A stretch of DNA of 64,000 nt from Desulfobacter sp. (GTDB lineage: Bacteria > Desulfobacterota > Desulfobacteria > Desulfobacterales > Desulfobacteraceae): contig CP054838.1 of the NCBI GenBank assembly GCA_028768545.1, positions 310,001 to 374,000 of the forward strand. Reading direction: 5' to 3'. Shown here one piece after another: positions 875 to 25,163 of the stretch. The translations under genes were made by a program, and so were the position numbers. Under the pieces are notes generated by a model. That model saw only the letters and a list, made by a program, of their open reading frames with translations. It was not told the DNA's origin and searched no databases. The number at the start of each line of letters is the position of its first letter. Positions within the stretch are counted from its first letter, which is position 1.

Positions 875-2707
875 ATGGAGAGCCTGTTATTCTGGCGGAT
901 CCACATTCTTTTTTCCATCCTCTTTGTCGGGGTCTTTCTTGGGTTTGTGGCCCTGATCATCGTGATGCCCATGTTTTTGGAAAGACAATTATGGGGGCTT
1001 TTGGCTGCCGACACAGGGCTATGGGGACTTGGCCTGGTCCTTTTGGCTGTCCCTGGCATCAGTTTCAGGGTCAGGACAATCCTGTCTCTTTTGGGTGTTT
1101 ACAGTTTAGCCCTTGTGATCATTATCAATGTGGGGTTGTTGAGCGGCGGTCCTGCCGCCCTTTTTGCCTTTTCCGTATTGTGCGGGGTGTTACTCGGGTA
1201 TCGGGCAGCCCTCTTGTCCGTGGTCCTGAATGCTGTCACCCTTTGCCTGTTTGCCGCTCTGACCACCCAGGGCAGTCTGGAAACCGTTTCTGCCTTTTTT
1301 GATTCCCCTTTTTTGATGGTGACCTCCGGGGCCACCTTTATTTTTTTAAATGCAATGGCTGCACTCTCTGTTTCGGTTCTGCTCAGGGGGGTGGTGCTGA
1401 GCAATAAAAAGGAAAAACAGCTGAGCGCCTCGCTTACGGATGAGACCCGAAAGCTTATGGAAACCCGGGATATTCTGGAAAAGGAGATTCAAAAGCACAG
1501 ACTCACAGAAGAGGCGCTCTACGAAAGTGAACAAAAATATCGGCATCTGTTTAACCTGGCCCCTGCCGGGATGTATGAGATTGATTTTACAAACTTTTGT
1601 TTTGTCGAGGTAAATCAGCTTTTGTGTGATTTTTCAGGGTATTCCCGTGAAGAATTTCTGGCCATGAATCCCATGGATTTTTTAAAAGAAGAAGACAAGC
1701 TCAAATTTATTTTAAGGTACGAAGAACTAAAAAAGGGCCAAATTGACAATACTGAACAGGAGTATAATATCATTATGCCGGACGGCAGGGAGTTAACCGT
1801 GGCGCTGAGCAATGATTATCTCTATACAAACGGGGAATTAAAAGGGGCAAGGGTGGTGGTCCATGACCTTACCCGGCGGAAAAAAATAGAGGAGATGATG
1901 GTCCAGTCCGAGAAGATGATGTCCGTGGGCGGGCTTGCCGCGGGCATGGCCCATGAGATCAACAATCCTCTGGCCGGCATCCTTCAAAATGCCCAGGTGA
2001 TTGAAAATCGTCTGATCCGGGATCTGCCTGCAAACCATTCTGCTGCCTCGGCCCTTGGTACATCCATGGATGTCATCAAAGAATTTATGGAAGAACGGGG
2101 GATATTGGACCAGCTTTCACGGATCAGGGAAGCCGGCAACAGGGCGGCCCGGGTCGTTGACAATATGCTCAGTTTTGCAAGAAAGGAAAATGCCTCTAAA
2201 AATGGGCATAGCCTGGGCGCATTGATTGATTCAACCATTCACCTGGCAGAAAACGATTATACCCAGGCCTCCAATTACGATTTTCGTCAGATCGATTTGG
2301 TAAAGGAATATGCGCCTGATATCCCGGATGTCTGGTGTGAAAGGTCCAAGATCCAGCAGGTGCTCCTTAATATTATAAAAAACGGGTACGATGCCATGTC
2401 ATCGGCCGGTACAGAACATCCCCAACTCATTTTCCGGCTTAAAGCCCGGACAGGGATGGCTGTATTGGAGATTGTCGACAATGGTCCGGGGATGTCGCCC
2501 GGGGTTCAGAAGCGTATTTTTGAACCTTTTTTTACGACCAAAAAAGTGGGTGTGGGCACGGGCTTGGGCCTTTCTGTCTCCTATTTTATCGTTGTGGAAG
2601 ACCATGAAGGAGAACTCTTTGTTGACTCGGCACCCGGAAAGGGCAGTTGTTTTGTGGTCAAACTTCCCCTGGTCGGCACTGCCATGACGTCTGGTCAAAA
2701 AATTTAG
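875..2707 (+). CDS. Membrane PAS sensor histidine kinase
   Basis: A 610-residue sensor kinase. About five or six hydrophobic segments fill residues 1-180, followed by a short coiled linker, a PAS domain (about 220-340, starting near ESEQKYRHLFNLAP), a HisKA dimerisation domain with the phospho-acceptor His in GMAHEINNPLAG, and an HATPase domain with N box (NIIKNGYDAM), G1 (DNGPGM) and G2 (GTGLGLSVS). It should phosphorylate a response regulator that is not adjacent. The same frame stays open upstream to 779, almost to the IS4 end at 774, and no good ribosome binding site precedes ATG 875. The native N-terminus may therefore have been trimmed by the insertion. Signal and partner are unknown. 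Confidence 0.85.
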   Translation: MESLLFWRIHILFSILFVGVFLGFVALIIVMPMFLERQLWGLLAADTGLWGLGLVLLAVPGISFRVRTILSLLGVYSLALVIIINVGLLSGGPAALFAFSVLCGVLLGYRAALLSVVLNAVTLCLFAALTTQGSLETVSAFFDSPFLMVTSGATFIFLNAMAALSVSVLLRGVVLSNKKEKQLSASLTDETRKLMETRDILEKEIQKHRLTEEALYESEQKYRHLFNLAPAGMYEIDFTNFCFVEVNQLLCDFSGYSREEFLAMNPMDFLKEEDKLKFILRYEELKKGQIDNTEQEYNIIMPDGRELTVALSNDYLYTNGELKGARVVVHDLTRRKKIEEMMVQSEKMMSVGGLAAGMAHEINNPLAGILQNAQVIENRLIRDLPANHSAASALGTSMDVIKEFMEERGILDQLSRIREAGNRAARVVDNMLSFARKENASKNGHSLGALIDSTIHLAENDYTQASNYDFRQIDLVKEYAPDIPDVWCERSKIQQVLLNIIKNGYDAMSSAGTEHPQLIFRLKARTGMAVLEIVDNGPGMSPGVQKRIFEPFFTTKKVGVGTGLGLSVSYFIVVEDHEGELFVDSAPGKGSCFVVKLPLVGTAMTSGQKI

Positions 2708-2791
2708 CCTGATTTTTTTTTGACCGTTTCAAAAGTACAAATTGTCACCCTTCGGGCGAATCGATTCGTGAATTATGCGGGTTGGATTTTT

Positions 2792-3178
2792 TTATTTTTG
2801 ATGGTCCCGGTCCAGGTGAAAATTAACCCAGGAGCTGGTTTTGTTTAGCTCCCAGTTCCGGGGCGGGACATTTTTTTCCATGAATTGTTCCAGCCTGCCG
2901 GCCTGGTTGAGACGGTCATAGGCCCTGATCCATATACATTTTTTATCGGGATAGACTTCGCAGAATCCATTCCTGCTGCCCCCGCAGGGGCCGTTTCGGG
3001 TATGTTTGGGGCATTGGGATTCAGGGCAGAGAAATCCCGCATGCTGGATGGCGCAGTCCCCGCAGCTCTGGCAGGACAAAAGACTCATCTTTACAGGATT
3101 TTCAAGGCAGCATTTCAATATCCAGGTTTTATCCTGATCCTCCAGAAATTGGGCCAGTTTTCTATAGGCAGGCGCCAA
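2792..3178 (-). CDS. MetV-like zinc domain (C-terminal part of MTHFR, out of frame)
   Basis: 128 residues matching the C-terminal domain found on methylenetetrahydrofolate reductases of acetogens and sulfate reducers. It is Cys-rich, with CQSCGDCAIQHAGFLCPES and CPKHTRNGPCGG as the recognisable segments. The first codon is TTG and lies inside the metF reading frame. The frame is open further upstream and reads ILNTAHTLFFDKKNT before this point, which looks like natural linker to this domain. I infer that 2792-4281 was one fused protein with a one-base shift near 3217-3232. Separate overlapping metF and metV genes are the alternative. Confidence 0.7.
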   Translation of the reverse strand: MAPAYRKLAQFLEDQDKTWILKCCLENPVKMSLLSCQSCGDCAIQHAGFLCPESQCPKHTRNGPCGGSRNGFCEVYPDKKCIWIRAYDRLNQAGRLEQFMEKNVPPRNWELNKTSSWVNFHLDRDHQK

Positions 3179-4281
3179 GGTATTTTTTTTATCAAAAAAT
3201 AAGGTGTGGGCGGTATTGAGTATAGATAGGGAAGGTGTTCCAGAACACGGGCTTTGATGCCCGGGCTGTTCCTGGGAGCGCCGTTGGCGGAGGTGGTGTT
3301 GTCATAGTAATAATGGGCATTTTTTTGTTTTGCCGAAAATTCACTGAGATATTTGGGCCAGTCATCCTGGATCTCTTCCATCCGGTTGAGGATGGCCCCA
3401 ATGGTATTAAAATCTTTGTGGACCCCGCCGATGTGAATGCCCCGGTAGCCAAATCCCTTGAGGACCACCCCCAGCCTTGCGGCCCGTTCTATGCCGGCCT
3501 TGATGCCTTCTTTGGGGTCTTTCCATTCCAATACCACCTGGTTGTACAGTGCATCTGAAACATAGGCTCCGGGCACCCGGCCCATGTTCATGGCCTTGGC
3601 CGCCCTGGGGCTGAGCATGTAAACCGATGCCATCATGGGGATGTGGCTGTGGTTTTCATTGTGAAACCGGATAAGTTCGTTGAACTTGTTGATATCATAG
3701 CCCAGCTGGGTAATGACAAAGGTGGCGCCGGCTTGAAGTTTTTTATTCAGTTTTTTGTATTGGGCCAGGCATTCGGCTTCCTGGGTTTTAAAGGGGGAAA
3801 CCCCGCATCCGGCAAAAAAAGGTTCAGGATCCCCCAGGGCCAGGAGCCGGTCGCTCAATTTTTTGATCATGGCACTCAAGAGTACGGAGTCCAGGTCAAA
3901 CACGGGTGCGCCCCTGCCGCCGAATCCTTTGCCGCTATAGTCTCCTGTCAGGCATAATATGCTTTTCATGCCCATGCGGGCCAGTTGAAGTGCCCGGCTT
4001 TCCATGCCCACCCGGTTCATATCCCGGCAGGTAAAGTGAACGATCACATCCAGGCCGTATTTGAAAATTTCATATCCCAGAACATCCGGAGACAGGGAGG
4101 GGTTGCCTCCGGGGTTGTCTGTGATGGATACGGCAGAAATCCTGCCGTCGGCAAAGGCGTCTTTTGCAATGCCCACCAGGGTGTCTGTGGTTCGCCCAAA
4201 AGATTCCCGTCCCGGCACCAGCTCAAGGGTGACCACAAAATTTTTAGGATCCATCAACTCTTCACTGAAGATGCGCAGCAT
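3115..4281 (-). CDS. metF: 5,10-methylenetetrahydrofolate reductase, catalytic domain
   Basis: TIM-barrel MetF family protein reducing 5,10-methylene-THF to 5-methyl-THF, for methionine synthesis or the methyl branch of the Wood-Ljungdahl pathway. Family features include the N-terminal VTLELVPGRESFGRTTD, the central FCITGDYSG-like loop (SILCLTGDYSGKGFGGRG) and FVITQLGYDINKF. The ATG at 4281 is preceded by AAGGAG. The last 30 or so residues (from about SIPPTPYF) look like frameshifted reading of the linker to the MetV-like domain encoded at 2792-3178, so the annotated C-terminus is probably wrong. Confidence 0.88.
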   Translation of the reverse strand: MLRIFSEELMDPKNFVVTLELVPGRESFGRTTDTLVGIAKDAFADGRISAVSITDNPGGNPSLSPDVLGYEIFKYGLDVIVHFTCRDMNRVGMESRALQLARMGMKSILCLTGDYSGKGFGGRGAPVFDLDSVLLSAMIKKLSDRLLALGDPEPFFAGCGVSPFKTQEAECLAQYKKLNKKLQAGATFVITQLGYDINKFNELIRFHNENHSHIPMMASVYMLSPRAAKAMNMGRVPGAYVSDALYNQVVLEWKDPKEGIKAGIERAARLGVVLKGFGYRGIHIGGVHKDFNTIGAILNRMEEIQDDWPKYLSEFSAKQKNAHYYYDNTTSANGAPRNSPGIKARVLEHLPYLYSIPPTPYFLIKKIPWRLPIENWPNFWRIRIKPGY

Positions 4282-4425
4282 GGAAAGTCTCCTTGTCAGG
4301 TGCCAAAGCCCTTATCATAGGCTTCCCAAAAAGTGGGTTTAATGGGGTGATTATATATTAATTTATACGTCTGGGCCTTTTTTTTCAAGCAAAGAAATTT
4401 TTGAAAAGCTTGTTCCTCGGGTCTA

Positions 4426-5784
4426 TCAAGCCTTGACCAAATTCCTGATCCATTTTTTTGAAAAAAACCGGGGCAGGCCGATTATTAGTTTGAAAAGTTC
4501 TTCTGCGGCAATCAGGGCCATGACCCAATAGACGGGAAGGTCCAGGTAAAACGCGGCAAAAAAGGCCATGGGAACCCCAATGCACCAGACCCCTGTGAGG
4601 TCCAGTAAAAAACCGAACCTGGTATCTCCTCCGCCCCTGAGCACAGAGACCACATTGGTGAAATTGGTGGTTTTTGCCCAGAGAATGAGGCCTGACACCA
4701 GCATGAGATAATGGGCATTTTCATAGGTGCCAGGGGAAATCTTATAGAATCCCAGGATAAAATCCCGGGAAAGAATCATTAAAAGTCCTGCCCCCAGAGC
4801 CATGATCAGCTGGGCAATCAAGAGGAATTGCCCATAGGCATAGGCTGTTTTTTTATTTCCGGCACCAATGCTGTTGCCGATCATGATGGATCCGCCGTGG
4901 AAAATTCCGAAAAAGGGGATGAACATGAATTCCTCAATGGTGGAAACGATATTCACGGCCGCAATGGATTCCGTACCTATTCTGGCATAGACCAGCTTGT
5001 ACATGGAAACACCCGTGACCCAGAACAATTCATTGAGAAACACGGGCCAGCAGGTGGCCAATACCCGTCTTAAAAAGAGGATGTCAAAACTGAACATCTC
5101 CTTGAATCCTGCGGCCAGAGGATACTTTTTTTTGTAAACAATGGTGATGATGACCAGGCCTTCAAGGATTTTTGCCGTGCAGGTAGCAATGGCCGCCCCT
5201 TTGACCCCAAGGGCGGGAAACCCGAAATGACCAAAGATGAGCGCATAGTTCAGAAAAATATTCAGGATCACCGCAACCATGGAGGAGATTATGGGCACCA
5301 TTGCAAATCCCATACTTCTCAGATTGGACATGAGAGAAAAAATGGTGGCGGACACGGCAAAGGCAATGCCGACAATTTTCAGATACCCTGCCCCCAGAAG
5401 AACCACTTGGGGGTCTGTGGAAAATAAAGAGATCAGTTGAGTAGGGAAAAACAAGGCCCCCACAGAGAAAAGCAAAGAGACCGCCACCCCGGCCAGAATG
5501 CCCATGCCGGACAATTGCTTGATCCGGCTCAACTCTTTTTTGCCCCAGTACTGGGCCGTGAAAATGGAGACCCCTGAATGGATTCCGTACTGGATCACAA
5601 TGAACATGAAAACAAATTGATTGGCAATGCCTACGGCGGCAATGGCGGTTTCATTGAGCTGGCCGATCATGAGAATATCAATGGTGCTCATGGAACAGGT
5701 CAAAAGGTTCTGCAATGAAATGGGCAGGGCCAGGGTGAGGAGTAATCCTAAAAATGTTTTTTGGTGCTGTCCTGAGGAGATCAT
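4426..5784 (-). CDS. MATE family multidrug/drug-metabolite exporter
   Basis: 452 residues in about 12 membrane segments arranged as two related halves, the usual size and layout of MATE (MatE) cation-coupled antiporters of the inner membrane. The N-terminal pattern LALPISLQNLLTCSMSTIDI and the MIGQLN loop fit the family. The substrate cannot be told from sequence. It is a single gene, divergent from rubrerythrin and tail-to-head with metF, with no obvious operon partner. The start is supported only by a weak purine-rich stretch. Confidence 0.9.
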   Translation of the reverse strand: MISSGQHQKTFLGLLLTLALPISLQNLLTCSMSTIDILMIGQLNETAIAAVGIANQFVFMFIVIQYGIHSGVSIFTAQYWGKKELSRIKQLSGMGILAGVAVSLLFSVGALFFPTQLISLFSTDPQVVLLGAGYLKIVGIAFAVSATIFSLMSNLRSMGFAMVPIISSMVAVILNIFLNYALIFGHFGFPALGVKGAAIATCTAKILEGLVIITIVYKKKYPLAAGFKEMFSFDILFLRRVLATCWPVFLNELFWVTGVSMYKLVYARIGTESIAAVNIVSTIEEFMFIPFFGIFHGGSIMIGNSIGAGNKKTAYAYGQFLLIAQLIMALGAGLLMILSRDFILGFYKISPGTYENAHYLMLVSGLILWAKTTNFTNVVSVLRGGGDTRFGFLLDLTGVWCIGVPMAFFAAFYLDLPVYWVMALIAAEELFKLIIGLPRFFSKKWIRNLVKA

Positions 5785-5889
5785 TATCTTCTTGGCCCTT
5801 TTAAACGGATGGGTATCTTTACAGGGAAAATTGATTCAATGGTCTATACCAGACCCGGGCCTGTTTTTCCACTCAAACAAATATCTTTC

Positions 5890-5920
5890 TTGACATAAAG
5901 CCTGAAAATCCTGGTATAGT
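5890..5920 (+). promoter_or_regulatory. Possible sigma-70 promoter of rubrerythrin
   Basis: TTGACA at 5890-5895 is followed by GGTATAGT at 5913-5920. The spacing is 17 nt to GGTATA or 19 nt to TATAGT. It lies about 85 nt upstream of the rubrerythrin ATG in the gap after the divergent MATE gene. This is a consensus match only. Confidence 0.4.
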
Positions 5921-6005
5921 TGGTCGTGTCTTTGGAAAATCAAGTTCTTTTTAACTCAACTATAACCTATTATTTTTTTGTATTGTAAAAAGGAGATAAG
6001 AAATT

Positions 6006-6506
6006 ATGGGAACCATGGAAAATTTAGCCGCTGCATTTGCAGGTGAAAGCCAGGCCAATCGTAAATATCTTGCCTTTGCCGCCAAGGCTGAAAAAGAAGG
6101 CTTTGCCCAGGTGGGTAAATTGTTCAGGGCCGCAGCCGAGGCTGAAACCATTCATGCCCACGCACATCTTTGGGCCATGGGAGGGATTAATTCCACCCTT
6201 GAAAATCTTGAAGCCGCGGTTGAAGGCGAGGCCCATGAATTCAAGGAGATGTATCCAAAATTTCTGGCCACGGCCCAAGAAGAGGGCAATAAAAAGGCTG
6301 TGGTTTCCTTTAAAAACGCCATGCCCGTGGAAGAGACCCACCATGGACTTTATCTTAAGGCCCTGGATGCGGTAAAAGCAGGCAAAGACCTTGATGAATC
6401 CGGTATTCACATCTGTCCTGTCTGCGGGCATACCGTGGATGCGGGTGTGCCTGATACCTGTCCTGTATGCAATGTGCCGGGTAAAAAATTTATTGAAATT
6501 TCATAG
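6006..6506 (+). CDS. Rubrerythrin
   Basis: 166-residue cytoplasmic peroxide-reducing protein of anaerobes. The N-terminal ferritin-like diiron domain shows the typical glutamate pattern (AFAGESQANRKY; EAETIHAHAH). The C-terminal rubredoxin-type iron site is CPVCG followed by CPVCN. Length and domain order are canonical. The ATG follows AAGGAG. It is probably monocistronic, with a TTGACA-type promoter upstream. A role in oxidative-stress defence is inferred from the family. Confidence 0.96.
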   Translation: MGTMENLAAAFAGESQANRKYLAFAAKAEKEGFAQVGKLFRAAAEAETIHAHAHLWAMGGINSTLENLEAAVEGEAHEFKEMYPKFLATAQEEGNKKAVVSFKNAMPVEETHHGLYLKALDAVKAGKDLDESGIHICPVCGHTVDAGVPDTCPVCNVPGKKFIEIS

Positions 6507-9359: not shown

Positions 9360-10180
9360 ACGGGAACAAAGAAAAATCAAATGGATTGGCCCAGGACGTT
9401 GAAATGCAAGGCCCTGAATATTCCGGCCCTTTGCTGGGCATCAGGCGGCTGTCAAAGTCATTCATGGTGAACGGGTCAAGGGTCGAGGTGCTCAAGGATC
9501 TTTCCTTTGAGGCCAGGGAAAAGGAGTTTGTCTGTATTCTCGGCCAGAGCGGTTGCGGCAAATCCACCCTTTTAAAGGTCATGGCCGGATTTATCCCTTT
9601 GGATTCAGGCCAGGTCCTTTTCCAGGGTTCCCCCATTACCAAACCAGGGCCTGAACGCTGTGTGGTCTTCCAGGAAGATGCGCTGTTTCCCTGGCTTACC
9701 ATTGAAGAAAATATTGGATTCGGCCTGGTTAAAAAGACCCGGGGCCAACGGCAAAAACAGGTGGACAAATTTTTAGGCCTGGTCGGTCTTTCCCCGTTTA
9801 GAAAGTATTTGCCCAAGGAAATTTCAGGGGGTATGAAACAGCGGGTGGCCCTGGCCAGGGTGCTGGTGCTCAACCCCAGGATTCTTCTCATGGATGAGCC
9901 CTTTGCCGCCCTTGATGCCCAGACCCGGGAAAATATGCAGGATCTGCTGCTCGCCCTCTGGCAGACCCTGGGCCATACCATTGTTTTTGTGACCCACGAT
10001 GTCAGGGAGGCTGTGGCCCTGTCAGACCGGACCATGGTCATGAACCAGGGGCCCGGGGATTTTGCCCGGATTGTGGACATCAACCTGGACCGGCCAAGAT
10101 TCCAGGAAGATGAGCGCTTCATGGGATATGTGGGTCGTTTAAAACGGCTTGTCTCCTCGGCAGATACGGGCAGGCCTTAG
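9356..10180 (+). CDS. ABC transporter ATP-binding protein (SsuB/TauB type)
   Basis: 274-residue ATPase with Walker A GQSGCGKST, Q-loop VVFQEDALFPW, signature ISGGMKQRVALARVL, Walker B ILLMDEPFAALD and switch VTHDVREAV. It powers the importer with the two genes before it. Its end overlaps by 4 bp the end of the convergent gene at 10177. Confidence 0.92.
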   Translation: MNGNKEKSNGLAQDVEMQGPEYSGPLLGIRRLSKSFMVNGSRVEVLKDLSFEAREKEFVCILGQSGCGKSTLLKVMAGFIPLDSGQVLFQGSPITKPGPERCVVFQEDALFPWLTIEENIGFGLVKKTRGQRQKQVDKFLGLVGLSPFRKYLPKEISGGMKQRVALARVLVLNPRILLMDEPFAALDAQTRENMQDLLLALWQTLGHTIVFVTHDVREAVALSDRTMVMNQGPGDFARIVDINLDRPRFQEDERFMGYVGRLKRLVSSADTGRP

Positions 10181-11516
10181 GGCGTTTGTTTTTTTATATT
10201 TGTATATCTGAAATCATCTGCATTGATATGGCCCCAGCCGCCGGCATGGTTATCCTTTATACAAATTTTTGCTGTTTTCCCCTTGTATTCACTGACATCC
10301 CAGATTTTTCGGGTCATGGTCTCATTGTTCTTCCCCGTGGCAGAGAAAATCGTTTTTCCTTCAACCACAAGAGAGACTGTCTCTTTGTCCGGTACATGGC
10401 CTCCTCCGATGAGGAATGAAATTTGATCCCCTTTGATGGTAAAGTCGGCAGAGGTCAGGGTGCCCACAGGGCGGTCTCCTTGACGGCTTCCAGGCCTCTG
10501 GTTTTCATTGCCCTGGTATTTTTCAAAGGTGCCGATCCAAAACTTTTTCTGGTGGTGTGAGGGCATTGTTTTCCGGCCCCGGGCGGTGGGGTTGTCTCCC
10601 TGGGTGGGTGCAAATTCAAATGCATTGCCCTCAGGGGTCCAATGGGTCAGGTCTCCCATTTCAAAATCAGAGTTGGGAAATAAAAGCAGCGGATCTTCAG
10701 CCAGGGCTTTTTTTTCAGGATCCAAGGGGTTGGGCATGGGGGAGGGTTCCGCAGCTGAAGGGGGCGCCAATTCCGTTGATTCAGGGCCGTCTTGAGCAAT
10801 TGGAGGCCCAGCTATTGGGGATGAGGGTATTGATTCGTTGTTCAGGGGGGCGTTGAACCCGGGGGGACTGCCGGCAGACCATTGCCCGTTTTTGTAGATT
10901 AACAGACCATTGCCCGGGTTAAATTCCCATTGGCCGCCGCCGTTATAAACAAGCTGGCAGGAGGTGTCGTTTTTTTCGTATCCGGGAAAGCCAAAGGCTG
11001 CCAGCTTGTTTGGATCCTGGACCCTCACATTCACAAAGCTCACAGGTGCCGGGTCATATTGATAATGGGGTACAATTCCCATTTGATCTCCCATATCGTA
11101 TTGGATGGCGCTGTTCCACATGTATTTTCCCCGGGGGACTTTGGGGATTCTCACCGGATAAATTTTATCTGCCTTTGTGTCCAGAGCGATTAGTTTTTCC
11201 ATCCTGTCATTGGGCCTGGACATGGCCTGGGTCTGGACCTGGTAACGGCCGGTATTAATCCGTGTGGCGCTGATTCGGTAGGGGCCGCCTTTGAAAGAAA
11301 ATCCGTATTTTTTAAGCACGGTATTGTCCTGAACCATGCATTGGGCAGTTAGGTTTACCCCCTGGGTTTGAATGGCCAGGGACATACAGCCCAAGTCCTG
11401 GCCCATTGGGATTTCGCCTCATCGTCAGTGGATCCGGCTGCCCAGGGGGCAGGTGCCAAAAGTATGAAACCCAAGGTAAGAGCCGTCCAGGTTAAGATCT
11501 TCAATCGCCGGTTCAT
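10177..11516 (-). CDS. Secreted protein with C-terminal lectin/sugar-binding-like domain (frameshifted near N-terminus)
   Basis: The frame from ATG 11406 gives 409 residues but lacks a leader. Just upstream, ATG 11516, preceded by GGGAGG at proper spacing, encodes a signal peptide in another frame (MNRRLKILTWTALTLGF, then LLAPAPWAAG). I therefore read 10177-11516 as one exported protein with a one-base shift at about 11401-11425. The body has a conserved N-terminal part, a Pro-rich linker (around SSPIAGPPIAQ) and a C-terminal beta-sandwich-like module beginning FPNSDFEMGDLTHW, as in carbohydrate-binding tails. Function unknown. It lies downstream of a Cys-rich gene remnant in the same direction. 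Confidence 0.6.
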
Positions 11517-19127: not shown

Positions 19128-20030
19128 ATGCAACTCAGTAGGCGAAATTTTTTTAAATTCATGGGAGCCGCCAGCGCCTCAGTTACGGCCTTGCCATCAT
19201 CTGCCGATGCCTGGGAATCAAAGGCGCCGCCTGATCCTTACGGATGCCTGGTGGACCTGACCCGGTGCGTTGGCTGCCGCAAATGTGAGGAAGCCTGTGC
19301 CCAGGTCAATGGCCTGCCCGCACCGGAACGGGTCAATTGTCAATGTACGATTTTTGACAAAAAAAGAAGGCCGGACCACAAGGCATATACTGTGGTCAAC
19401 CGGTATTTTACAGGTCAACTGGATCGTTTTGACAAACCGCTTCCAACCTATGCCAAGGTTCAGTGCATGCATTGCCAGGACCCGGCCTGCATTGTCGGGG
19501 CATTGACCAAGGATGACACGGGCAGTGTCAGGTATGATGTGGATAAATGTATTGGCTGTCGATATTGCATGGTGGCCTGTCCCTTTGAAATACCCGCCTA
19601 TGAATATGCCGATCCCATCACACCCAGGGTGATGAAATGTAACTTTTGTTACGACAGGATTTCCAAGGATGGCGGGATTCCCGGCTGTGCCACCATTTGT
19701 CCCACCGAGGCCATAACTTTTGGCAAGCGAGCCTCTCTTTTAAGGGTAACCAAAAAAAGGCTCAGGGAAAATCCAGGGGTATACATTGATCATGTGTATG
19801 GTGAACGAGAGGTGGGCGGAACATCCTGGCTTTATATTTCTTCTGTGCCCTTTGAACGAGTAAATTTGCCCGCATTACCGGATAAACCGTCACCCAAACT
19901 ATCCGAAACCATACAGCATTCGCTGTTCAGCTATCTATGGTCGCCCATCGCACTTTTCAGCGTTCTGGGGGTGTTCATGTATAAATCAAACAAAGCTGAG
20001 GAAGAGCCAAAAAATAAAGGAGGTGCCTGA
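19128..20030 (+). CDS. Tat-exported four-cluster ferredoxin subunit (HybA/DsrO-like)
   Basis: 300 residues. The Tat signal is [15 protein letters not shown]. Ferredoxin motifs are [32 protein letters not shown] and CNFCYDRI with a following CATICP, giving four [4Fe-4S] sites. A C-terminal membrane helix (about 270-290) follows. Such subunits pass electrons between a NrfD quinone module and a periplasmic redox protein. I chose ATG 19128, 5 nt after GGGAGGT, over 19116. Its stop overlaps the NrfD start (TGATG). It acts with the TusA-like, NrfD and multiheme cytochrome genes. Confidence 0.9.
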
Positions 20031-21120
20031 TGGAGCATAAATCAAGTCCGTTACACCGGCCCTTCTGGAGCCCCGGTGTCCTTGTCATGCTGGTTTTTAT
20101 GATTGCAGGAGCCGTTGCCATCGTTGCACGGTTTACCGGCGGCATCGGCTATGTCACTAACCTGACCAATGCCAGGCCCTGGGGACTGTGGGTGGGAGTT
20201 GATGTGGCCACCGGTGTTGCCCTGGCAGCCGGCGGGTTCACCACGGCTGCTTTGGCCCATATTGCAGGCAAACATTATTATGAACCCCATTACCCGGCCG
20301 GCACTTTTAACGGCTGTTTTGGGGTATACCTTTGTTGTTCTGGGACTTTTGGTGGATATCGGGCGTTCCTGGGCCATCTGGAAACCCATATTCAACTGGA
20401 ATACCAATTCAGTGCTTTTTGAAGTGGCCATGTGTGTGATGGTCTATCTCCATGTGCTCTATTTTGAATTTTTTCCCATTGTTGCAGAACAGTTCAAGGG
20501 AAGGGTTAACCTTCCGGGCGTTCTTTCTTCGTTCAACGATCTTACGGAGATGATATTGAAAGTGGGGGACGCTGTCATGGGTAAAATCATGTGGGTGTTT
20601 ATCATTTTAGGGGTTGTCCTGTCCTGTATGCATCAATCAAGTCTGGGCTCTCTCATGCTGGTGGCGCCGACCAAGCTGCATCCGTTGTGGTATACACCGA
20701 TGTTGCCCCTTTTGTTTCTTACCTCGGCCTTTGCCGTGGGATATCCCATGGTGGTTTTTGAAACAACCCTTGTGACTGCTTCGTTTAAGCTGGATTCAGA
20801 GATGAGCATTCTGGCGCCTTTGACACGGATTACTATTTTCCTTTTGGACATTTATATGTTTCTCAAACTTGGGGATATGGTTTACAGGGGCACCTATGTC
20901 TATCTTCTGGACGGGACCCATCAAACCAATTCCTTTATTGTGGAGATACTTTTAGGCGTAATGGTGCCCTGGGTAATGCTGCTCGTTGACCGGGTCAGAA
21001 ATTCCAGAAGAGGTCTCTTTACTGCGGCATCTTTGATTGTCTTTGGTGTGGTTTTGAACCGGGTCAACGTATTCATTGTCGGATATAAACCGCCATTGAG
21101 TGACAATGGATATTTCCCGG
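20030..21120 (+). pseudogene. NrfD/HybB-like quinone-interacting membrane subunit, frameshifted and cut by IS6
   Basis: The first 85 or so residues (PHRPFWSPGV-like opening, helices, ARPWGLWVGVDVATGVALAA) are in the ATG 20030 frame. After the C run at 20285-20288 the frame must drop one base to continue as PITRPALLTAVLGYTFVVLG. Several NrfD-type helices follow, ending at YKPPLSDNGYFP where IS6 copy C begins. The C-terminus is at 16920-17040 on the other strand. Reconstructed length is 400 residues, normal for NrfD/HmcC-type subunits. As sequenced it cannot make a full protein. Confidence 0.85.
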
Positions 21121-21957
21121 GGTTCTGTTGCAAAAAATATTTCCAGGACAAAGAGATCGTTCAGGCGTAAAATTTACGCAGCATAAGAAAACAGATTTTC
21201 GACGAATTCTTTCTGCTTTAAAATTTCTCCCTTCCTGATATTTTTAACTTGTCCTTTTCTGATCATGTTCATAATTTCATAGCCTTTTAGCGTCCGCCAG
21301 GCAGAATGAAATGTCTTGAACCCCATACCAGCTCTGACAAGCTTTTTGATAAACCGGTGGTCTTGCTCAATAATATTGTTCAGATATTTATTCTGTCTTA
21401 GGATACAGTCCTTATTCAGAAGCTTTTTTTCTTTCAAAGCCTTTACAGCCGGAGGATATGCAGGATTTCCGTCAACACTCAGAACCCGAGGTCTGGAGCT
21501 ATTGGAAGCTCGCAGCATCTTTTTAAAAAATCGTTTGGCAGATTCCATATTACGTCTGCTGCGAAGAAGAAAATCGATGGTATTTCCACGGGAATCGACC
21601 GCTCGGTAAAGATACTTCATTTTCCCCCGCACCTTGATATATGTTTCATCAATACGGTAAGAATCATTTGATTGCCGCAGATACTTCCTGCTTCGCTTTT
21701 CCATTTCAGGAGCATAGCGCTGAACCCATCGGTAAATGGTACTGTGATCCACAGACAAGCCCCGTTCTTGCATCATCTCTTCCAGATTCCTGTAACTCAG
21801 TTGATATCTCAGATACCAGCGAACATTCAACAGGATGATTTCTTTTTCATAATGACGCCACTTGAAAGGGTTTTCATTTTTCATACTATCTCTCTGCAAA
21901 CAAATTAGTGCCAAAACGGACTTGTATCAGACATTAATAATTTTTTGCAACAGAACC
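21121..21957 (-). mobile_element. IS6-family insertion sequence, copy C
   Basis: 837 bp, inverted relative to copies A and B, with the same terminal repeats. The left flank TTTCCCGG is the reverse complement of the flank of copy B. The right flank is a 78-bp stub of the IS4-family element. Copies B and C form an inverted pair around 3.2 kb and could also recombine with each other. Confidence 0.95.
21174..21884 (-). CDS. IS6-family transposase, copy C
   Basis: 236 residues, same as copy A in the sequence compared, with complete HTH and DDE residues. It starts at ATG 21884 after GAGAG and is probably functional. Confidence 0.95.
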   Translation of the reverse strand: MKNENPFKWRHYEKEIILLNVRWYLRYQLSYRNLEEMMQERGLSVDHSTIYRWVQRYAPEMEKRSRKYLRQSNDSYRIDETYIKVRGKMKYLYRAVDSRGNTIDFLLRSRRNMESAKRFFKKMLRASNSSRPRVLSVDGNPAYPPAVKALKEKKLLNKDCILRQNKYLNNIIEQDHRFIKKLVRAGMGFKTFHSAWRTLKGYEIMNMIRKGQVKNIRKGEILKQKEFVENLFSYAA

Positions 21958-22035
21958 CTCATAGTTCAAACAGGGACAATATTGTCAAAGATCAAAAAAT
22001 TATTGAGCAAGCAAAAACCTAACCGGACATCACTG
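21958..22035 (+). mobile_element. 78-bp remnant of the IS4-family element
   Basis: Exact inverted counterpart of 51712-51789: the last codons of the transposase (reading VKDQKIIEQAKT and stop) and the terminal repeat CCTAACCGGACATCACTG ending at 22035. The rest was lost where IS6 copy C begins. The IS4 end is fused to the truncated helicase gene, so the IS4 insertion preceded the IS6 rearrangement. Confidence 0.92.
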
Positions 22036-22042
22036 AGTCACC

Positions 22043-23701
22043 ATGGCAAAGCTGATGAAAAAACATGGAATATCAGCCATGGCCGTCAGCGGCAAAGACA
22101 ACCAATCCGAATCATATATCCAGGAGTACCAGAAAGGAAGAACTCAATTTCTGGCCACCTGCTCCCTGTTGAATGAAGGGTGGGATTCCCCCCAGACATC
22201 TATTATTGTCATGGCCCGCCCGACCATGTCCAAAGTCCTGTATACCCAGCAATTGGGCCGGGGGACAAGGATCCACCCCGAAAAGGAAGCTCTTTATGTC
22301 ATTGATGTGGTGGATAATTACGGGGGGTTGGGAGGATTCACCAATAGGCCATGGTCAATACATGCGCTATTGGGCATTTCAGACTATATGCCCTGGGGCA
22401 GCATGCTCAATGGGAAGCAAAATTCATATTCAAAAGAAGAAATTATTTTAGCCGGGCTGTACGAGCAGGAACGGACAATCGAGCATATCAACATTTTTAC
22501 CTTTGAAAATAAATATCCCGATCATATTGATGATGAACAAATGGCCCGGGAGTTATTCGTCTCCACGGGAACCGTCAAAGCCTGGGTTAAAAAAGGTAAA
22601 ATAAAACCCAAAGTCACCATACCCGTGGGCCGCCAGAAAATAAATTATTTTGCTTTGGATCAAATAGAGCAGATCATCAAAGATCTCCAATTAAAACGGC
22701 ATGATGAAACCACTCAGCACAATGACTTTTTTGAATTTATTGACAAAGATGATTTTTCAATGTCCTATAAAATGGTGATGCTCCTTTCAATGCTCAAAGT
22801 GGTCGACCATAACGGAGAATGCCATTTAGACGACCTTCTCAGGGAGTATACTGATTTTTACAGATTCCGCCTTGGAAAAAAAATCAAAGTAGACCGAGCC
22901 AACTGCCCCTACATCCAGGAGGAAACTCTGGATGATATGGTAATAATAAAAAGAAGTCTGCTGCAAAATCCCTTTGAGAAATTCGAACGAAAGCGGTTCA
23001 TATACCATTGTAAAGATCTCAACCACATCTCTTTTTCCAATAATCTATGGACAAAAATCAATAACAAAAAAGATCTGGGCCGACTAAAAAACACATATTT
23101 CAAAAGCCTGATTCATTATTACAAAGATCTGGACGGACTGCCCAATGAACTGGACCTGCGGCAAAAATGGATGATTCCGGCAGAAGCTCAAGAAAAAGAT
23201 ATAAAGATGCCTGCCCGGGAAAATATCAGGATTCTTGAATTTAAAAAGATCAGAACCGCCAGGTTTAAAACAGCCCTGCCCCTTGTGGGAGACATCGCAG
23301 CAGGAGAGCCGTTCAGGGGATTTGATATCCATGATCTTAAGAATGCTGACGCTGATCTTCAATGGATTGAGCTTCCTGACGCCTTGTGCAATGACCGCCG
23401 CTTTCTGGTCCGTGTTGCAGGAGATTCAATGGAACCCACCATAATAAAGGGGGATTATCTTGTCTGCGAATACCACCGGCACCGCCAGGAAAATCATCCC
23501 ATAGTCATCATGGGTGATTTTTCAGCCTTAAACGCCGGAGAGGTTGCCGTCAAAAGAATCTCAGAATCTGAAAACCACTGGATTTTCAAGTCAGACAACC
23601 CGGAATACGAGGATATTCTTCTGGAAAAGGAATATGATGATCAATATCCTATTTTAGGGATAGTCGTCTATAATCTCACCAAAATGGTACGATGCTATTA
23701 G
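22043..23701 (+). pseudogene. 5'-truncated superfamily-2 helicase fused to HTH and LexA/S24-like autoprotease domain
   Basis: The 552 readable residues begin inside the second RecA-like lobe of an SF2 helicase (LNEGWDSPQTSIIVMARP, YTQQLGRGTR are motifs V-VI). The NTP-binding lobe was removed by the IS4 end at 22035. A MerR/excisionase-like HTH follows (about 170-215, MARELFVSTGTVKAWVKKGK), then an uncharacterised helical region, then an S24 domain with a LexA-type Ala-Gly site (VGDIAAGEPF, 420/421), Ser462 in GDSMEPT and Lys504 in EVAVKRI. The intact protein may have been a damage-responsive or defence helicase; this is inference. ATG 22043 may not be used. Confidence 0.75.
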
Positions 23702-23909: not shown

Positions 23910-24317
23910 ATGAGAGTATTATTCTGGTATTGTGACACATTTGCCTGGACCCCGACCATCAAAAGCCTTGAACAGGTTCCGGAATCCGGGCCCAATGCGG
24001 CGGATGAGGTTGTGGTGGCCTTTGTTCATGTTGAACCCAGGGACCTTGAAAAGGGAAATTCCTCTGAAACCAAACTGGTGAAAAATGCCAAATGGCTGGC
24101 CCGCAAATGGGATGTATCAAAAATTTTACTCCATTCATTCACCCATCTTGGAGAAGACAAGGCCGATCCTGACGCCGCCGGCCAGATCCTGGAACAGGCC
24201 CGGGACCGGCTGATCAAAGCCGGCTATGATGCCTCCTTAACCGCCTTTGGATATTATAACGATCTGGTAATTGAGGCAAAAGGGCATCCTTTGGCAAGAA
24301 TATTCAAGGAGTTTTGA
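23910..24317 (+). CDS. Stand-alone archaeal-type tRNA-Thr editing domain protein
   Basis: 135 residues resembling the N-terminal editing domain of archaeal threonyl-tRNA synthetase (tRNA-Thr_ED, a D-aminoacyl-tRNA deacylase-like fold that hydrolyses Ser-tRNA-Thr). Recognisable pieces are DTFAWTPTIKSLEQVPES, VVVAFVHVEP, KNAKWLARKW, LHSFTHLGEDKA and the terminal GHPLARIFKEF. No synthetase domain is attached. AAAGGA lies upstream of the ATG. A trans-editing role is inferred. In bacteria a free-standing form is unusual. Confidence 0.8.
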   Translation: MRVLFWYCDTFAWTPTIKSLEQVPESGPNAADEVVVAFVHVEPRDLEKGNSSETKLVKNAKWLARKWDVSKILLHSFTHLGEDKADPDAAGQILEQARDRLIKAGYDASLTAFGYYNDLVIEAKGHPLARIFKEF

Positions 24318-24391: not shown

Positions 24392-24673
24392 ATGGCTGGA
24401 GTGGAAAAAAGATTTCAGACCCGGATGCCGTTTCATGTGCATGAAAAGCTTATAAAGGCGGCAGAGTTGTCAGGATCGACCTTAAATCAATTTGTTGTCC
24501 AGTCTGCATTGGAAAAAGCCAGTGACATCCTGGAAAAGGAACGGGTGCTAAATCTGAGCTACAATGATGCCCATACCATATTTGAGGCCATTGAAAACCC
24601 GCCGGAACCCAAAAATGCGCTAATCCGGGCAGCCAGGGAGTATCAGCAGGAATTCGGCAATGAATCGGTTTGA
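24392..24673 (+). CDS. TacA-type (DUF1778) antitoxin
   Basis: 93 residues with an N-terminal ribbon-helix-helix (about 8-50: RFQTRMPFHVHEKLIKAAEL, LNQFVVQSALEKA) and a C-terminal toxin-binding tail. Antitoxin and autorepressor by family. The ATG follows AAGGAGGG. Overlaps the GNAT toxin gene by 14 bp, the usual TacAT order. Confidence 0.88.
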   Translation: MAGVEKRFQTRMPFHVHEKLIKAAELSGSTLNQFVVQSALEKASDILEKERVLNLSYNDAHTIFEAIENPPEPKNALIRAAREYQQEFGNESV

Positions 24674-25163
24674 GGAACTCAACCGTTCACATAATAGAGC
24701 CGGATTTGACTGCGGAGAAGAGGAGCTAAACGGATTTCTGAAAAACCTTGCCCGCCAGAATCTTAAAAAGGGACTCTCAAGAACATTTGTATTAACGGCA
24801 AAGCAGATACCGGAAGAAATTCTTGGTTTTTTCACCCTGTCACTTTTCGAAATTAAGGCTGAAAGACTCCCTGAAAAATTTGCAAAAAAGTACAGAGTAA
24901 ATATCCCTGCCGTAAAAATCGCCCGACTGGCCGTTGCCAAAGGCCTTCAAAATCAGGGGATCGGCAGGTATTTGATGATAAATGCCATCTACCGGACAAT
25001 AAAGATTTCACAAAATGCCGGTATTACCGGACTGTTTGTGGATTCAAAAAACCAGAAAGTAAAAAAATATTACCAAAAATTTGGATTCATACCCTTACCT
25101 GACACGCCCTTGTCACTTTTCCTGCCTTTGGAAACCCTTTTGCAGATGCAGGCGTCTATTTAA
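24660..25163 (+). CDS. TacT-like GNAT acetyltransferase toxin
   Basis: 167 residues. It opens FDCGEEELNGFLKNLA as TacT-type toxins do, has the acetyl-CoA loop (LAVAKGLQNQGIGRYLM) and the C-terminal KKYYQKFGFIPL with the conserved catalytic Tyr. TacT enzymes acetylate charged aminoacyl-tRNA and stop translation. Paired with the DUF1778 antitoxin. Intact as read. Confidence 0.88.
   Translation: MNRFEELNRSHNRAGFDCGEEELNGFLKNLARQNLKKGLSRTFVLTAKQIPEEILGFFTLSLFEIKAERLPEKFAKKYRVNIPAVKIARLAVAKGLQNQGIGRYLMINAIYRTIKISQNAGITGLFVDSKNQKVKKYYQKFGFIPLPDTPLSLFLPLETLLQMQASI

Follow-up and report, generated by a model that had tools for sequence, protein, structure and literature searches.

A helicase gene with a LexA-like S24 tail, split in a Desulfobacter chromosome, belongs to a family of putative phage-defence nuclease-helicases

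A stretch of 64,000 nucleotides of a Desulfobacter chromosome (C1:310001-374000, hereafter the window) contains an open reading frame (ORF) at 22043-23701 that combines helicase and LexA-like S24 domains. We report that the helicase-HTH-S24 fusion is a real and recurrent architecture, and that the window ORF is a broken gene copy without a working product, whose relatives rather than the copy itself are the most informative finding. As judged from sequence alignments and a structural model, the full gene most likely encodes a Vsr-like PD-(D/E)xK nuclease, a RadD/SauUSI/HsdR-type SF2 helicase, an HTH, a helical region and an S24 domain, and the intact cassette most likely serves phage defence as a restriction-like nuclease-helicase. 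The best explanation overall, to which we give an even chance, is that the split gene stems from a device in which a phage-defence nuclease-helicase, accompanied by a methyltransferase, would be controlled by the S24 tail.

Results

The window ORF joins a helicase domain to an S24 domain

An earlier note on this DNA had described the ORF as a helicase fused to an HTH and to a LexA-type self-cleaving domain. As shown in Table 1, the fusion of helicase and S24 domains in one polypeptide is confirmed, because both Helicase_C (residues 4-77) and Peptidase_S24 (residues 413-542; 62.3 bits against a cut-off of 23.3) exceed the curated Pfam cut-offs, and the helicase domain aligns to residues 471-561 of SauUSI (7clg) and 290-359 of RadD (6jde). 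The cleavage site, Ser462 and Lys504 had been placed exactly and align with their counterparts in E. coli LexA. The MerR/excisionase-like HTH stands less firmly: there is an HTH_17/MerR match at residues 165-212, but it stays under the Pfam cut-off; among relatives, the segment occupies the same position in the alignment (PF12728 E 0.003 in relative L002 and 0.023 in L041). The S24-less relatives end shortly past the family-specific helical region in this alignment.

The ORF is not itself a LexA repressor, since the NCBIfam LexA model TIGR00498, which matches residues 396-542, remains below its equivalog cut-off (44 versus 111 bits), and since a helicase rather than the LexA winged helix precedes the S24 domain. 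Nor does the S24 domain appear to be a recent relic of the host LexA or of a prophage repressor, the best S24 paralogue in the genome having only 28% identity to it. RecA is present in the host genome.

Table 1. Features of the split gene and of the adjoining insertion sequences, in window coordinates
Feature	Position	Strand	Basis
3' half of the split gene (C-terminal part of the nuclease-helicase-S24 protein)	22043..23701	+	552-aa ORF, ATG 22043 to stop ending 23701
Second RecA-like helicase domain, motifs V-VI, residues 4-77	22052..22273	+	PF00271 Helicase_C, E=7e-6
HTH-like segment, residues 165-212	22535..22678	+	PF12728 HTH_17/MerR, E=0.011, under Pfam cut-off
Family-specific helical region with PFEKFERK motif	22730..23167	+	Alignment of relatives
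LexA-like S24 autoprotease domain, residues 413-542	23279..23668	+	PF00717, E=4e-17; TIGR00498, E=1.7e-11
Predicted scissile bond Ala420-Gly421	23300..23305	+	Aligns with E. coli LexA A84-G85
Predicted catalytic Ser462 (GDSM)	23426..23428	+	Aligns with E. coli LexA S119
Predicted catalytic Lys504 (AVKR)	23552..23554	+	Aligns with E. coli LexA K156
IS6-family insertion sequence, terminal repeats GGTTCTGTTGCAAAAAAT	21120..21957	-	NF033587, E=1e-79; transposase ORF 21174-21914, minus strand
78-bp terminal remnant of the gene-splitting IS4-family element	21958..22035	.	Terminal repeat agrees with the opposite IS4 end (C1:297492) at 18/20 positions
9-bp target site AGTCACCAT, duplicated when IS4 inserted	22036..22044	+	Second copy where the 5' half ends, C1:297501

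An IS4 insertion followed by an IS6 inversion would have split the gene

Because the window copy is broken, no working device can come from it. A relative's N-terminal half, used as a query against the host genome, located the missing 5' half at C1:297465-299081 on the minus strand; this half is 57% identical to relative L020 over residues 6-502 of the latter, and the window ORF represents the remainder. The two halves lie 33 kb apart on opposite strands, and both are still open. The 5' half carries PTGIGKT and DEAHH, the window half carries motifs V-VI, and a methyltransferase gene (C1:299024-299647) lies directly upstream of the 5' half. An intact gene would have encoded a product of about 1,060 aa.

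The 5' half terminates at the start of an IS4-family element (NF033592, E=9e-62), which has itself been cut in two: 1,241 bp, including the transposase, remain beside the 5' half (C1:296252-297492; IS4 transposase at C1:296189-297418), and the 78-bp remnant lies beside the window half. Both IS4 parts run up to an IS6 copy; the remnant begins with 8 bp, CTCATAGT, that were duplicated when IS6 inserted and that are found at both IS6 copies in inverted orientation. Further, the reading frame agrees across both halves (CVSVKHAVT / VTMAKLMKK), and the 4.96-Mb chromosome has 41 near-identical IS6 matches, including the one in the window. Given the matching IS4 ends, the AGTCACCAT and CTCATAGT duplications and the 41 IS6 copies, the simplest history is that IS4 inserted into the gene and that IS6 subsequently entered IS4 by replicative transposition, inverting about 35 kb. 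The earlier note was thus right to name IS4 as the cause of the interruption, of which the 78-bp end remains, but the complete element adjacent to the ORF is IS6, and the gene was split with its other half kept, which excludes a plain truncation by an insertion sequence. The fusion is also not an artefact of this rearrangement, because intact fusions occur in many genomes (see below).

The IS6 copies of this chromosome suggest a recent expansion with at least one inversion. Every copy of the gene found in Desulfobacteraceae is broken or incomplete: among the related copies, one (G049) is without the first helicase domain, one (G045) is frameshifted and carries a deletion, and one (G068) runs off its contig. 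Several other features of the window surround the ORF. The gene of an NrfD/HybB-like membrane subunit (20030-21170) has an apparent frameshift near 20300-20420, runs into IS6 at 21120 and is probably also broken. A free-standing 135-aa archaeal-type threonyl-tRNA synthetase editing domain (23910-24317; PF08915, E=7e-36) is encoded in this bacterial genome, and a TacA-like antitoxin gene followed by a GNAT acetyltransferase gene (24392-25163) is likely a type II toxin-antitoxin pair.

Intact relatives encode a putative nuclease, a helicase and an S24 tail in one chain

A scan of genome contigs yielded 340 relatives, and 80 of them were retained; a scan with the window protein alone gave no match. 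Among these 80 of 340 relatives, and with L098 added from a separate search, 13 open genes of full length carry the S24 tail (L024, L028, L034, L041, L042, L044-L047, L049-L051 and L098; 1,030-1,065 aa). They span Nitrospirota, Myxococcota, Thermodesulfobacteriota and Pseudomonadota, have Walker A, the DEAH box and motifs V-VI in one chain, and reach S24 scores of 35.4 (L098), 27.8 (L024) and 32.4 bits (L041) against the cut-off of 23.3. Full-length homologues with the same domain order are therefore found in many lineages, well beyond this truncated locus. The S24-less relatives, which occur in gut Bacillota and others, are the majority, and most of them end at 830-890 aa. The distribution of the family is patchy (5/145 relatives).

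The N-terminal 240 residues of the relatives have an invariant set of residues in the alignment (E122, E144, D158, E171-x-N-G, HHP and QN) and were modelled by AlphaFold with a pLDDT of 89. Residues 117-232 of the model have I-Bth0305I (Z 7.6) and Vsr endonucleases (Z 7.2) among their top matches, values below the confidence threshold, and Pfam gave no nuclease match. Because the Vsr-type Z score is under the usual threshold, the PD-(D/E)xK assignment rests on motif and fold jointly, and the domain would have nuclease activity. Among helicase folds, RadD comes closest (Z=25 across 353 residues), with SauUSI and HsdR also recovered; a fold search with the whole model was filled by helicase matches and was uninformative on the other domains.

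With respect to mobile elements, the PD-(D/E)xK form turned up on a plasmid or phage only once, on an unannotated faecal contig filed as phage (L002, without S24), and the four matches in viral contigs all were without the S24 part. The S24 tail was found on one Pseudoalteromonas chromid. The contig filed as 'Bacteriophage sp.' (MT836124.1) resembles a Lachnospiraceae chromosomal fragment, with TRAP-transporter-like, DUF262-like, methyltransferase, nuclease-helicase and S8-peptidase-like genes.

The family is related to, but distinct from, known restriction and repair enzymes

The Type IV enzyme SauUSI (7clg; mREase_IV in PADLOC) shares with the window family a nuclease and an SF2 helicase in a single chain, and is the best PDB sequence match for the helicase; SauUSI-like genes are found beside several of the loci. 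The window family, in contrast, has a PD-(D/E)xK-like nuclease, no PLD and no DUF3427 match, and adds the HTH/helical region, the S24 tail and the methyltransferase partner; because the PLD domain was not found with Pfam, we do not regard it as a SauUSI Type IV enzyme. RadD (YejH), a DNA-repair helicase, is without a nuclease or S24 domain, unlike the window family, which scores 77.5 bits with the RadD model NF053632 against a cut-off of 720 and is thus not a RadD equivalog. HsdR of the EcoAI/EcoKI type has nuclease and motor in one chain, as the window family does, and the HsdR model NF046051 matches the motor (E=3e-36; 125 versus a cut-off of 550 bits); however, the family is not Type I restriction-modification, as neither HsdM nor HsdS is present and the one regular neighbour is a small class I methyltransferase.

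With LexA, UmuD and CI, the tail shares the S24 family, the Ala(Cys)-Gly bond, the Ser and partly the Lys, but it is attached to an enzyme, not to a DNA-binding repressor domain. The published idea that comes closest is that protease modules have repeatedly been paired with nuclease/helicase defence systems as a means of control, as in HamMAB, Avs and canu (PMC12799240). In those systems, the pro-nuclease is a separate protein, cut in trans by a trypsin-like or caspase protease, whereas in the window family a predicted S24 autoprotease is built into the nuclease-helicase itself. No PADLOC 2.0 model covers the full protein, matches being limited to the helicase motor.

A methyltransferase gene and, at several loci, defence genes accompany the nuclease-helicase

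A homologue of a class I SAM methyltransferase of ∼200 aa was found in 63 loci and is directly upstream of the nuclease-helicase gene in 52 of them, often overlapping it; in the full-length S24 loci, it is directly upstream in 13/13. This protein matches general methyltransferase and TehB models, and the NPPY motif of DNA methylases was not found in it. Consequently, we assign it to the general class I type and not to the DNA methylases.

Defence genes were seen near several loci. Neighbours of the defence type (as classified by PADLOC) include SspC (L098), ZacABC (L019), IetS (L028), SauUSI-like genes (L031, L041 and L060), a DpdE/ZorD-like helicase (L046), Lamassu-like LmuA/LmuB (L115), an EACC1-type caspase (L042), DrmC-like PLD proteins (L018 and L044) and an HNH protein (L018). 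About 10 loci looked at lie amid defence genes; any enrichment is an impression from about a dozen loci and not a statistic. Two loci (L034 and L050) have ordinary, housekeeping-like neighbours. No SOS box (CTG-N10-CAG-like pattern) was found close upstream of the S24-carrying operons, the sole match lying 951 bp upstream in L024; therefore, there is no transcriptional link to SOS.

The S24 tail is an optional module recruited repeatedly

When the S24 state was placed on the tree of the nuclease-helicase core, it changed 7 times, at least 6 of these on supported branches. The S24 domains themselves fall into three groups in a quick tree with long branches: a LexA-like AAGEP type in the window and two other Desulfobacteraceae, an AAG type in L024, L028, L031, L044, L049 and L098, and an ACG type in marine Gammaproteobacteria. 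These trees indicate that one and the same position received S24 tails of at least three S24 lineages. No separate S24 gene was found beside the S24-less relatives. Directly behind a frameshifted S24-carrying gene in L031 lies a short S24-like remnant (9994-10212), which suggests duplication or replacement of the tail.

The earlier note had made its reading depend on retention of the Ala-Gly bond, the Ser and the Lys. In the S24 alignment, Gly is present at the scissile bond in 44/44 rows that cover the site, with Ala or Cys before it in all 44, and the catalytic Ser is present in 44/45 rows. The Lys, however, is kept in 10 rows only (the window and the AAG types, including E. coli LexA) and is Arg in 35, that is, in 35/35 of the Alteromonadales/ACG-type tails aligned. 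This exchange in the marine type may make cleavage slower or abolish it. Cys before the scissile bond is always paired with Arg at the Lys position (L147-L173 and L041-L051).

Of 394 genomes from the order to which Pseudoalteromonas distincta (L041) belongs, 28 have the ACG-type S24 domain; 24 of these 28 domains end a PLD-nuclease helicase, 3 end a PD-(D/E)xK helicase, and 1 is a remnant. The PLD-S24 relatives carry PLDc_2 (Pfam), and this alternative core is of the SauUSI kind. In all 27 nuclease-helicases of the ACG type, the methyltransferase is encoded upstream or is fused into the protein, as in L168, where a 1,317-aa open frame (2236-6186) encodes methyltransferase, PLD nuclease-helicase and S24 in one polypeptide. 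In Pseudoalteromonas CuT4-3, the slot of the L041 genes contains a methyltransferase 84% and an S24 domain 89% identical to those of L041, and the core between them is a different, PLD-type nuclease-helicase. Because PLD and PD-(D/E)xK cores are interleaved in the S24 tree, the cores have been swapped inside a frame of methyltransferase and S24 that stayed constant.

Discussion

The intact device would be a two-gene cassette in which a small class I SAM methyltransferase comes first and a nuclease-helicase-S24 protein of ∼1,060 aa comes second. It would act much as a restriction motor-nuclease (SauUSI, HsdR) does, with a LexA-type switch added. We propose that the S24 tail pairs as in LexA and UmuD and thereby restrains the motor-nuclease, that RecA filaments formed on single-stranded DNA after phage attack or DNA damage would be the trigger, and that the tail would then cut itself off at the Ala(Cys)-Gly bond. 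The remaining core would approximate the natural S24-less relatives, which we take as the free, active form. It is from sequence comparison that we infer nuclease activity, a role in defence, self-cleavage, its dependence on RecA and which way the switch turns. That cleavage activates the enzyme falls, in our estimate, just short of an even chance. The predicted scissile bond lies 83-108 residues past the FERK motif and the S24-less relatives end 46-72 residues past it, so the cut protein would be roughly of the S24-less form; if the S24-less relatives are active, cleavage would therefore mean release.

The switch could also work in the opposite direction, with RecA-triggered cleavage exposing -IAA or -LAA and ClpXP then degrading the nuclease-helicase, a built-in restriction alleviation that would spare the cell during damage to its own DNA. 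We regard this shut-off as quite possible, if not the favoured direction. Cleavage of the AAG types would leave a core with the end -AA, mostly as -IAA or -LAA; one of these two ends is predicted for the window protein and for L018, L019, L028, L031, L044, L049 and L098. In LexA, cleavage uncovers ClpX signals on the fragments, which ClpXP then destroys (PMC10584840), and ClpXP removes HsdR, the helicase-nuclease of a Type I enzyme, in restriction alleviation (PMC4231737). The core ends and both precedents for destruction by ClpXP make the shut-off nearly as likely as release. Conversely, S24 cleavage sites themselves typically have Ala-Ala before Gly, and the putative degron is thus not independent evidence; further, the marine-type core would end in -IAC, and alleviation of EcoKI restriction is independent of the general SOS response (PMC4231737).

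A different role for the tail, as a dimerisation module that does no cutting in vivo and only sets the oligomeric state of the nuclease-helicase, would fit the Arg found in place of Lys in every marine-type tail and the many relatives that do without S24, but we consider it unlikely: the scissile Gly with its Ala or Cys is invariant and the Ser nearly so across three S24 groups, and pure dimerisation needs neither the scissile Gly nor the Ser. We likewise think it improbable that the family is a DNA-repair enzyme, a RadD-like helicase-nuclease under SOS control, rather than a defence enzyme. RadD being the closest helicase fold, the LexA-type tail and the housekeeping surroundings of some loci would agree with repair; the patchy distribution, the defence neighbours, the exchange of cores between conserved flanks and the frequent decay argue against it. 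Finally, since both halves of the split gene are still open, the window ORF might be thought to be a working fragment (helicase lobe 2 and S24) that acts in trans to regulate or complement the separated 5' half. This we consider very improbable, because no recognisable ribosome-binding site precedes ATG 22043, 33 kb and a change of strand separate the two helicase lobes, and the G045 and G049 copies have decayed as well.

Overall, we return to control of a defence nuclease-helicase by its S24 tail as the reading to be preferred. The interpretation in the earlier note, which had recognised the fusion, is partly supported; the note overlooked the N-terminal putative nuclease domain, the paired methyltransferase, the other half of the gene and the nature of S24 as an optional module. 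More broadly, and tentatively, we suggest that a class of phage-defence nuclease-helicases may have been wired to the SOS signal, to be switched either on or off through RecA filaments, by a fused LexA-type autoprotease, with a constant methyltransferase/S24 frame, swapped cores (PD-(D/E)xK or PLD) and S24 domains of three or more origins. Searches of the open-access full-text literature brought up no helicase or nuclease fused to S24, although a description in a subscription paper could exist, and the S24-tailed nuclease-helicase with its methyltransferase is probably a type of defence device that has apparently not been described.

If this reading is true, defence enzymes would be controlled post-translationally by the DNA-damage sensor of the cell, with neither new transcription nor a separate protease, and the balance between attack on foreign DNA and self-harm could be tested directly. 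The recurring S24 tails and the cores swapped between constant methyltransferase and S24 parts form a natural comparison series, and the pair of methyltransferase and nuclease-helicase is a candidate defence system outside PADLOC 2.0.
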